Source: Hysterangium stoloniferum (taxonomy: Eukaryota; Basidiomycota; Agaricomycetes; Hysterangiales; Hysterangiaceae). Taken from it: DNA of 64,000 nt. The stretch covers positions 372,001 to 436,000 of the forward strand of contig WHVD01000044.1 in the NCBI GenBank assembly GCA_015178975.1, read 5' to 3'. The first letter of the stretch is position 1. Each line of letters opens with the position of its first letter. The position numbers and the translations under genes were made by a program. Below, piece after piece: positions 41,450 through 53,520 of the stretch. A model generated the notes under the pieces. The model had not been told where the DNA came from and made no database searches. It saw nothing but the letters and a program-made list of their open reading frames with translations.

Positions 41450-42215
41450 AGATTTGCACATCTCAACAATATATCTTGCAGTTACACAGTAGTAGCATGG
41501 GTGGATTGAGCATTCCGAAAGCGTATTTCAGTGCCGAGTTGCCAATCGCGGACCAAGTTTATGAGTATATGCACTCTTCTTATGCAATAGGTGTGAGCAT
41601 CTACCAGTATCTCTGCAAGTTGGGAAGTATGGCCAGGGTTTTGTGCGAAGGCGACAATTTTTTCTGAAATTATGTGTATTTTGTACACATCTTCCTTCTC
41701 AATCTATTGGTCAACATTAAACAGGTAACTACTGGTATTACTAGTTCAACTACATTTTAGCAGGGGTATGCAAGGAAGAGCCCATTTTCCCCCAAAACCA
41801 CCAAGAAATCAATCCACTATCTTGAAGGACAAGTCCAAGTTACAGATCCTACTGCAGCAGTAAGTTCACTGAGAACATTTCTCGTAGTAAGAATTCTGAT
41901 ATGCCTATCCTATTGTCCAAGCGGAAACTGACCTGCCCAGCCATGCACTCAGGTGGAATTGTTTTGGATGCCATTGCACCATACACCTAACGTGGCTCGT
42001 GATTACGAGGTACAACCAGCGAATCCACGAGAAAAAAATTGACAGGTGTACAAGCTGGTAATGAACCACACCTTTATACATTTGAAGGCGACATCCGTTC
42101 ATATCAGAATATACCTCGGCTTGAGAAGATGTCTTTCCTACAGCAAAGAAATCATCCACAGAATTACAGCATGTCCGACTATTTCCAAGATTTCTGTAGG
42201 ATTGCAATATATTGT
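41450..42215 (+). pseudogene. GH79 pseudogene (third copy)
   Basis: Aligns by eye with exons 1-5 of the two GH79 genes downstream. CTTGCAGTTACACAGTAGTAG corresponds to YVLQL..GG but carries stops. GGATTGAGCATTCC and GCGGACCAAGTTT match exon 1. The first donor GTGAGT is now ATGAGT. The 13-nt micro-exon survives as TTGGGAAGTATGG at about 41620, with its donor changed to CCAGGG. The exon 4 end reads VQAGNEPHLYTFEG, keeping the N-E-P acid/base motif, and exon 5 reads MSDYFQDFCR. The C-terminal exons are missing. Confidence 0.8.
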
Positions 42216-43981: not shown

Positions 43982-44071
43982 ACTCGGAAGTAATGAAGAG
44001 GTTCTACATGCCATAGATTAATGATCAGCCATTAATATATGACATGTAGAACCTCTTCATTACTTCCGAGT
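43982..44071. repeat. Perfect 29-bp inverted repeat (hairpin)
   Basis: Arms 43982-44010 and 44043-44071 are exact reverse complements (ACTCGGAAGTAATGAAGAGG...). The 32-bp loop itself contains ATTAATG...CATTAAT. It sits 240 bp before the GH79 copy 1 start codon. Confidence 0.95.
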
Positions 44072-44312: not shown

Positions 44313-46847
44313 ATGCTTACTAGTAGACTCTGCTGGCCGATCATCCTTTCCGTCCTTTTGGTGTTCCTCAATTCATACTCGGTCAATGCTGTTACAATCT
44401 ACACACAAGTGACATTCGCAGACGGTAGCGTTCCCACTGCAACAGCATCTTCACCAACCCCTACTCATGCAGCATATGATTCAACCGTCCTTACTCCGCC
44501 CCCTGTTCCAAATCCAAACATTCCCACAAACTACGTCTTGCAGTTGCTCAGTGGTGGCATGGACGGATTGAGTATTCCGCAGACTGGTTCATTTGTGGGG
44601 TTTAGCGTCGAACTGTCAGTCGCTGATCAAGTTTGTGAGTATATGCGCTTCTGTACTCAGCGTTCCTGGGTGCTATGCTAAGTAATACTTCCGCCTGCTC
44701 CCAAAGTTGGCAAAAATGGGTAAGGACCGCGCTATCACGATCTTCGATTTTCTCTTTCTTATATGTTTAGTACACATATTCAACCCGTTCTTCTCAATCT
44801 GTTGGCCAATATCCAACGGAGGGCTGGAAGCGTTCAACTACGGGTTGGAGGTAACACACAGGAGCGAGCAGTTTTCTTTCCTGAAGGACTAGCCAATAAG
44901 TCCACGATATTGAAGGACAAGTCTAATTTGAAGAATCCGGTACGTGATTACGGCTTCCTAGATCACACTATAAGAATTTTGAGGTGTAATTTCGGTAGAC
45001 CGATACTCCGACTATTCAAGTGGGAATCGATTTACTGTATGCATTTGCGAATATATCATCCCACATCAATGCTGGATGGTATATTGGTATGCCATTTAAT
45101 GATACTCTTAACCCCCGGCTCGGTATTGCGGAGTATAGCCAGCGAATTCTCGGAAAGCATTTGTTGGGAGTGCAAGCTGGCAATGAACCTGACCTCTACG
45201 CATCTGTAAGCGATGCCTTTTCATATCAGGTTGTTTTCCAATTGACTGGGCACCTTTCATTCAGCATGGCGGCCGTCCAAAAGATTATAGCGTTACCGAC
45301 TATTTCCAGGATTTTCGTCGGATAATAGACGCAATAGGAAGCAATCCTAACCTCCAGGGCGATAACATCCTAGCTGGACCTAGTATCTGTTGCAATTATA
45401 ATCTTTCGCAGCTTCTCGACGCGGGTTACTCAGATTACCTTCATAACCTTGCTGTTTTAACTGTGGAACAGTAAGTATCATGATAAACTCTGTACGTCGA
45501 CGAGTGTGTACTGAATATTGTCATTAGTTGTGAGTACCTGTGACTTGGGTACGACACTGATGGGACTATCTAAATAATTTAACTTTAGATCCCGATAATA
45601 ATTGCAATGTGCGTATTTGATACTTTCCCGCAACAATAATTTCTATCTTGACAGTTAAAATAGATAGGCAAGAATATAAAGACACCTCAAGCTATATTCC
45701 AGAACTATCTTACACACGATTCAATCGTAAACACAGTCGCACCATACATGGGTGACGCTCGCAAAGCAGCCTCGGTCCAAAAGCCACTCGTCATGATGGA
45801 GACTAATACCGCATCATGTGGAGGCTTCCCCGGAATTTCAGATAGCTTTGGTGCTGCGTTATGGGGTATCGATTATGCCCTCCAGCTGGCGTATGCTAAC
45901 TTTAGCGCCGCATTCATACACATTGGTGGGCAGGATGTATACTATAATGTACGTGAAAAATCCCGTAACAACACGTTGATTTGACACGACCTTTCCAACA
46001 GCCATTTACGCCCCCTCCGACAAAGGATGCAAAGCGAGGAAAACAATGGACGATTGGGCCCATGTACTATGCCTCGTTAATCATAGCAGAAACGTTTGGT
46101 ATTACGGGGGCCGCACAGGTTATCGACCTTAAGGCGAATGGCGGTAACACCTTCACCCCAGCATATGCTGTCTACGAGAACGGAATTCCCATGCGCGTAG
46201 CTTTGTTCAATTATATCACGGATCCGTCCGGCGCAAGCAGCTACACCGCCCGGATCGCGATAGGCGGAAACGACGTCGGTCAACCCAACGCATCTCCCGC
46301 ATTGGTAACAGTGAGATACTTTGTCGCACCTTCTGTCTCATCCAAACACAACTTTTTATGGGGAAACCAAGTGAGTTTTTGTCATCATCCCTTGAAAGTA
46401 TTACTATTTTATACCACATCCCCTTTGTAGACATTCGGAGGTATGATGGAGTCCGACGGAATGCTGAAAAGACCCCAAGAGACTGTCACCGTCCAATGCG
46501 GTTCTGATAATTTTTGTCCGATAGATGTGCCAGCCCCGGGTTTGGCACTCGTTTTCCTGGCACCACAAGCCCAAGACGAATCGTCTGGCAACGATTTAGT
46601 CACATTTGCGACGACCGCAACGTCGGATATGCTCAGAAACACGGCGACCATCCCAGCGTCGGTTTTGGCGACGTCGAACGGATACGGCGGGCGGAATCAT
46701 CAGGTAGGGAGCACCAGTCCTGGAAGCAACGGCGCTTTGGGCATGCAGCATGCGGTTTCTGGCGCGCTCGTGTGTATGGCAGTGGGAGTGGTCACGGTGG
46801 TTATTGGCAGGGTCTCGGGCGGTGGCTACCATGGATTATGGATGTGA
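44313..46847 (+). CDS. Glycoside hydrolase family 79, copy 1
   Basis: Ten exons: 44313-44634, 44707-44719, 44771-44939, 44999-45205, 45265-45470, 45528-45529, 45589-45608, 45664-45948, 46002-46370, 46431-46847. They sum to 2010 nt (669 residues). A signal peptide (WPIILSVLLVFLNSYSVNA) precedes VTIYTQV. The catalytic acid/base Glu lies in QAGNEPDLY and the nucleophile Glu probably in METNTASCGGFPG. A C-terminal beta domain follows, and a hydrophobic tail (SGALVCMAVGVVTVVIGRV) suggests a GPI anchor. The family includes beta-glucuronidases that trim glucuronic acid from proteoglycans or arabinogalactan, so a wall-bound secreted enzyme is likely. Exon 2 is 13 nt and exon 6 is only 2 nt (TT). Confidence 0.88.
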
Positions 46848-51038: not shown

Positions 51039-53520
51039 ATGCAGGTCGTCCTCTCCCTCCTCTCATTGTATTTTGCGGCCTCTCCCGTCTATGCTTCTGT
51101 TACAATCTACACTCAAGTACCATTGGGAACAGCAACTGGATCATCTATATCCCCAGCTGGAACAGACACAACTCATGCAGCTTTTGACCCGACAGTTCTC
51201 AATCCGCCCGCGCTTCCCAGCCCTCCGATACCAACCACTTACGTCCTGCAACTTACCAGTGGCGGTGCGAACAACCTAAGTATCCAACAGCCTGGTAATT
51301 TCCTAGGATTTAGCGTCGAATTGTCCGTCGCAGACCAAATATGTACGTTTTTTTCGTGGTACCGTGTCCTCTAATAAGCCCTTTGTCTCATCTATCTTTG
51401 CACAGTTGGTAAAAATGGGTGATTACAGTCATATGTGTACCGTCTTTTGAGTCTAAGAATGTGACATATTAGAACACACATCCAACCAGTCCTCTTGAAC
51501 TTGTTGGCAAACGTTGAACGCCGTGCAGGTAGTGTGCAGTTGCGTGTTGGTGGTAACACCCAGGAAAAGGCCGTTTTCTTCCCAGAAGGGCTGCCTGGTG
51601 AGGCGACAATCCTGAAGGACAAATCGCAGATAACGAATCCAGTGTGTTGTCGTTATGGATGCTTCACACTATTGGCTATGAACTGATATCGCAATAGACT
51701 CAAACCCCTACTATCCAAGTTGGCATAGACTTGCTTTATGCCATGTCCAATATCACATCCCTCGTCAACGCAGTGTGGTATATGGGTGTACCATTCAACG
51801 ACTCTGCTAATCCGCGCCTCGCTATTGCACAATACAGCGAGCGGATTCTTGGGACGAGTTTAAAAGGCCTTCAAGTAGGAAACGAACCGGATTTGTATGC
51901 AGATGTACGTAGATGTGCTGAACGGCTTCCGATGTCTGACTTTTCTTTTTCCAGCATGGCGTTCGACCCCAACCATATGGTCCTCCAGAATATGTCGCTG
52001 AATTCGGTACAATGCTCGGTATAATTGGAAATGACTCCAATATCATAAACAAAACAAACATTATCGCGCCAAGTACCTGCTGTAATTATGGAGTTAACGA
52101 GGTTCTTGCTGCCGGCTTCCAACAATTCATCCCACAACTCGGATATTTGGCTGTTGAACAGTGGGTGATTCTTCACGTCTTCGAGCTCTCCGTATGCTAA
52201 CACGTCGTCTAGCTGTGAGTGAATTAAATCATGATATAATCCTGAGTATACTCATGGCGATATGAAGACCCCGACAACAATTGTGGAGTCCGTTTTATTT
52301 TCTGGATAGTTCTTTGGTGGTAGATACTAAACTATGTTTCACAACAGCTTGGCAATGTCACAGTCGACCTACAGAGTGAATTCCCAAAGTATCTGTCCCA
52401 CGCTGCCGTGGTAGCCATGGTACAGCCATTTGTAAATGTTGCTAACCAGGCTGTTGCTTTTCAAAAGCCGTTGTTAATGACAGAGACAAATACTGCGTCG
52501 TGTGGAGGGTTCCCTGGTATCTCAGATACTTTCGGTGCAGGTCTTTGGGGTATCGACTATGCGCTGCAGTTGGCATACGGTAACTTCAGCGGCGCTATGA
52601 TGCACATGGGTGGTCAGAATGTGTACTACAATGTAGGACAACTTTTTAATTTAGCGACTTTCTTGATGAATTTACACATGCCTTACAGCCTTTCACTCCA
52701 CCTCCTACTAATGATGCCAAGCATGGCAAGCAATGGACTATCGGTCCCATATACTATTCGACCCTGATTGTCGCAGAAGTCCTCGGTAGTTCGAACACAT
52801 CCCAAGTAGTAGATCTCTTTGCAAACGGTAACACTGACTCCACGCCCGCCTATGCCATCTACGAGAACGGAACCCCGGTTCGGGTGGCCTTGTTCAACTA
52901 CAACACTGACCCCAGCGGGGCGACCAACTATACAGCTCAGATTGCGATTGGCGGAAGCGGTGTCAATCAGCCGAATGCGTCCCCATCCCAGGTGACCGTT
53001 CGCTATTTCACGGCACCTTCTGTTAGTACCAAAACCAATCTCCTGTGGGCGAATCAGGTAGGGGTACCCTTTAGTTGTTCAAATCATGTCTTCGGCTGAA
53101 GCGTTTGACCAGACATTCGGTGGTGTCATGGAATCCGATGGCACATTCCAGGGCACACAGGAAACTGTCACCATACAGTGTGATACCACAAATAACATCT
53201 GTCCTGTCAACGTCCCCGCCCCTGGTTTCGCACTCGTATTCTTGACACCCGAGGCCCAGGCAGCATCGTCAGGCGGCCAAGCTGCCGTTGTCACGTTCGC
53301 AACCACTGCCACCACTGGTATATACCGCAACACGGCGACGATCCCACCTGGCGTTCTCGCGACCTCGAATGGTCATGGTGGATTGAACAACCAGGTTGGA
53401 AGCACTAGCTTTGGGAGTACCAATGGTGCATTGAATCTACTGCATGCCCTGCCAGGGATATTGTCACTGCTCTGCATGGCGATAGGTGCGGCAATGATCG
53501 GGCGGAGCCTTGTGCAGTGA
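51039..53520 (+). CDS. Glycoside hydrolase family 79, copy 2
   Basis: Ten exons: 51039-51342, 51406-51418, 51473-51641, 51698-51904, 51955-52160, 52213-52214, 52268-52287, 52348-52632, 52689-53057, 53113-53520. They total 1983 nt (660 residues). Exons 2-9 have exactly the same lengths as in copy 1 (13, 169, 207, 206, 2, 20, 285, 369). A signal peptide precedes SVTIYTQV. Acid/base Glu is in QVGNEPDLY, and the nucleophile candidate is in MTETNTASCGGFPG. The hydrophobic C terminus (LLHALPGILSLLCMAIGAA) suggests a GPI anchor. The 2-nt exon (CT) joins GAACA to ACCCC, giving the His-Tyr-Pro of VEHYPDNNC. It is probably secreted and wall-anchored, acting on glucuronyl side chains; the substrate is not determinable here. 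Confidence 0.9.

Follow-up and report, generated by a model that had tools for sequence, protein, structure and literature searches.

In the glycoside hydrolase family 79 (GH79) genes of Hysterangium stoloniferum, the sequence very strongly suggests that there is a real coding exon of just 2 nt, which is most likely used constitutively. The first example, copy 1, is in the window, the whole 64,000-nt stretch of DNA that was analysed, which comes from contig C377 (626,740 bases) in a 111 Mb genome; the fungus is truffle-like and belongs to the Hysterangiales in the subclass Phallomycetidae. The gene contains the dinucleotide TT between two short introns, each with GT...AG ends, such that one nucleotide completes a His codon and the other begins the Tyr codon that follows it (Table 1). 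With exon 5, TT and exon 7 joined, the translation of the gene model reads VEHYPDNNC, whereas with TT skipped the reading is CAA TCC CGA TAA, an immediate stop. The deposited protein for copy 1, P0003, also reads VEHYPDNNC and agrees with the gene model except at the junction of exons 1 and 2. It therefore already has the residues encoded by TT and, judged from its protein sequence, the depositors' copy 1 model is right at this site. Both readings had been put forward in an earlier note on this DNA and are reproduced here, and the coordinates, letters, intron sizes and intron ends which that note gave around 45528-45529 are all correct. We infer that the RNA is spliced as modelled.

Table 1. 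Coordinates in the window of the two GH79 genes, of the features around their 2-nt exons, and of neighbouring features.
Feature	Coordinates	Strand	Description
Decayed third GH79 copy	41470..42203	+	upstream of copy 1; pieces 41470-41559, 42033-42077 and 42156-42203
Inverted repeat	43982..44010 and 44043..44071		perfect, 29 bp, loop of 32 nt; copy 1 start codon about 240 bases downstream
GH79 copy 1	44313..46847	+	10 exons, open frame of 669 aa (gene model); PF16862 over cut-off for deposited protein P0003
Exon 2, copy 1	44707..44719	+	13 nt
Exon 5, copy 1	45265..45470	+	ends GTG GAA CA, phase 2; end letters GTGGAACA
Intron 5, copy 1	45471..45527	+	57 nt, GTAAGT...CATTAG
Exon 6, copy 1 (2-nt exon)	45528..45529	+	TT; His codon base 3 and Tyr codon base 1
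Intron 6, copy 1	45530..45588	+	59 nt, GTGAGT...CTTTAG
Exon 7, copy 1	45589..45608	+	20 nt, ATCCCGATAATAATTGCAAT
GH79 copy 2	51039..53520	+	10 exons, 660 aa (gene model)
Exon 2, copy 2	51406..51418	+	13 nt
Intron 5, copy 2	52161..52212	+	52 nt
Exon 6, copy 2 (2-nt exon)	52213..52214	+	CT; His CAC, Tyr TAC; sole open splice path there
Intron 6, copy 2	52215..52267	+	53 nt, GTGAGT...TGAAG

The same organization is seen in copy 2 and in a third GH79 gene on contig C112. Exons 2 to 9 have identical lengths in copies 1 and 2 (13, 169, 207, 206, 2, 20, 285 and 369 nt). The C112 gene is built in the same way: its 2-nt exon is CT, flanked by introns of 62 and 53 nt, and its exons 7 and 9 measure 23 and 366 nt. 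The joined motif of copy 2 is VEHYPDNNC, as in copy 1, and that of the C112 gene is VEHYADTRC. A 2-nt exon is thus present at the same codons in all three full-length genes of the subfamily that were found (TT, CT and CT; His CAT or CAC, Tyr TAT or TAC), although the genome searches for GH79 loci give lower bounds and further copies may exist. The first base of the exon, at the His wobble position, is T, C and C in the three genes, and the second, which is the first base of the Tyr codon, is T in each; a variable wobble position next to a constant first base matches the expectation for coding sequence. At synonymous sites the three genes have diverged almost to saturation (pS of 0.79, 0.84 and 0.82 for the three pairs, against pN of 0.23, 0.30 and 0.28), so that the shared placement of the exon does not reflect residual similarity of the introns. 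Retention of the exon in three paralogues whose silent sites are close to saturation also shows that such exons can be stable and need not be accidents.

These comparisons bear on the possibility that exon 6 is skipped, with position 45470 joined directly to 45589 so that the immediate stop described above gives rise to a shortened product or marks the transcript for decay, as in a regulatory switch or a dead gene. Skipping as the main product would leave unexplained why both the 2-nt exon and the encoded protein, with pN well below pS, are conserved in three genes, and we consider it very unlikely; some skipping beside inclusion of the exon is quite possible.

Other GH79 sequences are present in the genome. 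The GH79 genes on contigs C268 and C541 (L020 and L021) belong to a divergent subfamily and show, by eye, a single intron close to the site and lack the 2-nt exon; this intron, in phase 2, lies a few codons ahead of an HRY motif. Three fragments on contigs C221, C496 and C290 (L017, L018 and L019) each correspond to a 5'-truncated GH79 gene of the C112 type; no match to exon 5 was found in the 2.5-3 kb fetched upstream of them, and they are uninformative on the 2-nt exon. We note that the C496 and C290 fragments, by eye, have non-GH79 sequence in common upstream of a breakpoint close to exon 7, as if a mobile element had carried them. Within the window, copy 1 is preceded by a decayed third GH79 copy and by a perfect inverted repeat (Table 1), for which a genome search, within its sensitivity, turned up no further copy.

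All three proteins are predicted members of glycoside hydrolase family 79. They score 55, 74.3 and 73.4 bits against Pfam Glyco_hydro_79C, for which the curated cut-off is 27 (P0003 and P0006, the latter from the C112 gene, as deposited; copy 2 as modelled), and all three contain NEPDLY and ETNTAS, with the acid/base Glu in NEP and the nucleophile Glu in ETNTAS. A family profile matches the structures 5g0m and 3vny (E-value 3e-22) with NEPDL and ETN aligned, and in the profile alignment with these structures the Tyr with the split codon falls on Tyr243 of Acidobacterium capsulatum GlcA79A. This residue is described as offering a hydrogen bond close to the glycosidic linkage (PMC3832595), and the Tyr codon divided by the 2-nt exon should therefore encode an active-site residue.

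The site is well conserved among homologues. Three protein searches (the best 120 of 864, 1184 and 889 proteins above threshold) gave 195 different proteins, including the three from Hysterangium. In a joint alignment, 190 of the 195 listed homologues have a stretch of the same length (8 residues) with the Tyr and Cys in place, and a Glu precedes the His position in 180 of the 195. The His itself is often replaced (H in 105 of the 190, R in 53, K in 11, N in 7, Q in 6, F in 5, Y in 2 and I in 1), whereas among the listed homologues the Tyr is missing only in broken models. The proteins nearest to the Phallomycetidae ones, P0007 and P0019, have EHY unbroken and are on contigs of 2180 and 2288 bases; these could not accommodate a gene containing nine introns of this kind, and the two sequences are probably transcripts.

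To what extent the reading frame itself imposes the 2-nt exon can be seen by enumerating splice paths across the last 30 nt or so of exon 5 and onwards through exon 7, allowing up to three GT-AG introns of at least 35 nt. There are nine open in-frame paths in copy 1, just one in copy 2 and 15 in the C112 gene, and in each gene VEHY is produced by the 2-nt-exon path only; copy 2 has no alternative open path at all. The earlier note saw no other donor or acceptor that would restore the frame, which is not so for copy 1: eight further paths are open there, so it is homology and not the frame alone that forces TT. Its broader claim of a required 2-nt exon finds good support in the three paralogues, the homologues and the deposited copy 1 protein. 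One of the other copy 1 paths uses a 5-nt exon, TACCT, at 45535-45539 on the + strand (acceptor at 45534, donor at 45540), which is open and in frame between introns of 64 and 49 nt and gives VEHTYPDNNC. However, the stretch would then be 9 residues long, a length seen in none of the 195 listed homologues (191 of them have 8), and the deposited copy 1 protein has VEHYP rather than VEHTYP. The path is absent from copy 2 and unmatched in the C112 gene, and its splice sites (acceptor GAG, donor GTGACT) seem weaker than those of the TT path (ATTAG, GTGAGT). Use of TACCT by copy 1 is accordingly most improbable.

A more complex alternative is that there is no exon between the two introns and that they form a stwintron, in which one intron sits inside a splice element of another. 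Short introns that nearly abut do resemble the stwintrons described in published accounts (PMC5639578, PMC6616335), but nested GT-AG pairs across the junction that are open to exon 7 number 0 of 29 in copy 1, 0 of 39 in copy 2 and 2 of 42 in the C112 gene, and VEHY is obtained from none, so that a stwintron is extremely unlikely. The 2-nt exon is further set apart from chance by shuffling the intron interiors (20,000 shuffles per gene, with the first 6 and last 3 bases fixed). An AG-NN-GT split with any letters arises in 11.8%, 5.3% and 7.0% of shuffles in the three genes, and one that restores His-Tyr with both parts at least 45 nt long in 2.1%, 1.0% and 1.9%; the arrangement restoring His-Tyr is found more often than chance would give.

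Comparison with related fungi provides an evolutionary context for the exon. Five proteins among the 195 are broken at the site: Hysterangium copy 2 (P0001), Gautieria (P0004), Clathrus (P0008 and P0173) and Sphaerobolus (P0009), although in P0173 a longer stretch is missing than the site alone. Broken models account for five of the nine listed proteins named as Phallomycetidae and for none of the 186 others, which include metagenome proteins (Fisher p of 6e-8, a guide only, as the proteins compared are related and the second and third searches used two of the five as queries). They span all four named orders, Hysterangiales, Gomphales, Phallales and Geastrales. P0019, which is 72.5% identical to the Clathrus model, reads AEHYITNNC where Clathrus reads AEQLIFSQRKDITNNC, and this contrast, together with the broken models, suggests that a 2-nt exon may be common to the subclass. 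A tentative scenario, which we place somewhat short of probable, is that the exon is old in Phallomycetidae GH79 genes, has been selected since before the split of the four orders and is upheld by a fixed GTRAGT donor, the broken protein models being the basis for extending it to the whole subclass. If true, this would provide a natural test case, across a fungal subclass, for how the spliceosome handles splice sites 2 nt apart.

Two Ramaria proteins, P0002 and P0005, read VEQY with no gap at the site, compatible with a 2-nt exon of different sequence as well as with the loss of one of the introns. They also lend some plausibility to a single intron of about 116 nt in the Hysterangium genes, starting after CAGT and giving VEQYPDNNC, since this keeps the spacing and places QY in all three genes. 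The ends of such an intron would have to be AA-AG, GG-AG and CA-AG in the three genes respectively, whereas both short introns have kept their GT-AG ends in every one of them, and it is H and not Q that is found in the deposited proteins P0003 and P0006 and in the probable transcripts P0007 and P0019. We therefore regard a single non-canonical intron as having very little chance of being correct, and return to the 2-nt exon.

As to mechanism, AG-N(1-3)-GT with canonical flanking introns of normal size is present in 3 of 3 genes (52-62 nt, where the introns of these genes are 47-72 nt). The exon would be the product of two ordinary short introns lying 2 nt apart, one in phase 2 within the His codon and the other in phase 1 within the next, Tyr, codon, which are presumably removed in turn by intron definition, either one first; after the first removal the remaining intron would be flanked by the long exon 5 and the small exon 7 (20-23 nt). 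Stepwise removal is likely because splice sites 2 nt apart could hardly be assembled simultaneously, and since both introns are of normal size with their own GT and AG, ordinary intron definition in turn should suffice. The earlier proposal of recursive or specially assisted splicing is thus borne out as far as removal in steps is probable, whereas nothing found in the sequences calls for a special splicing factor. Recursive splicing through a zero-length exon (an AG/GT ratchet site) was considered and rejected, because two coding nucleotides are needed between the introns. The donor that follows the 2-nt exon is GTGAGT in all three genes, and GTRAGT is present in 5 of their 24 other introns (one-sided Fisher p of 0.019, for a small sample of three genes related by descent). 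This strong donor probably offsets the exonic half of the donor site, which a 2-nt exon cannot supply. The genome provides three natural versions with differing introns, the same exon position and the same GTGAGT, so that the order of removal and the role of donor strength are testable.

The consequences for annotation are illustrated by the deposited proteins. That of the C112 gene (P0006) carries the site correctly, as does P0003, whereas that of copy 2 (P0001) lacks the 2-nt exon, runs into intron 5 and has exons 6 and 7 dropped. Gene-prediction programs are liable to overlook such an exon between tiny introns, and copy 2 exemplifies a class of annotation error in which a conserved active-site motif is lost. 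A second very small exon is the 13-nt exon 2 (Table 1). Around it the deposited proteins of all three genes disagree with the gene models used here, and it too seems to have been missed or misplaced by gene prediction.

The Hysterangium exon falls into a small class of ultra-short exons already described, with 1-nt members in plants and in Fusarium, and adds a basidiomycete case of 2 nt. In searches of open-licence papers, the titles and starts of abstracts that were listed showed no 2-nt exon in any fungus and none for GH79. Several related systems have been described. The 1-nt exon of Fusarium CYP621A, published in 2026, is similar in being fungal, in having short GT-AG introns on both sides, in encoding part of a conserved motif, in being required by phase and conserved in orthologues, and in being missed by annotation; it differs in being 1 nt long, in an ascomycete P450 and backed by 18 RNA reads, whereas the Hysterangium exon is 2 nt long and predicted from sequence (PMC12940212). 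The same source states that exons of 2-5 bp are known in Arabidopsis, Drosophila and humans (PMC12940212). Among basidiomycetes, the Phanerochaete P450 genes share with Hysterangium the Agaricomycete setting, short introns and very small exons (microexons encoding 2-10 aa), but the shortest exon reported in the excerpted text is 6 bp (PMC1184071). Ascomycota stwintrons likewise consist of two short introns in close contact that are removed in turn, but there is no exon between them, whereas in Hysterangium there are 2 coding nucleotides and nested splicing fails (PMC5639578, PMC6616335).

In land plants, APC11 and VPS55 have 1-nt microexons that are supported by RNA-seq and RT-PCR (PMC8831610). 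These microexons resemble the Hysterangium exon in being tiny, conserved and often missed by annotation, and the GTRAGT donor conserved behind the VPS55 microexon may be compared with GTGAGT here; they differ in being from plants and 1 nt long (PMC8831610). For Arabidopsis APC11, stepwise removal has likewise been argued from the closeness of the splice sites (PMC4674806). The arrangement is AG-N-GT, although the natural exon is 1 nt long and is sited 333 nt into a 422-nt interval, such that one of its introns is longer (PMC4674806). An engineered TT version, AG-TT-GT as in copy 1, was spliced correctly in Arabidopsis and mis-spliced in rice protoplasts (PMC4674806). By analogy, the Arabidopsis result would support, and the rice result would count against, the reading of TT as a 2-nt exon in Hysterangium.
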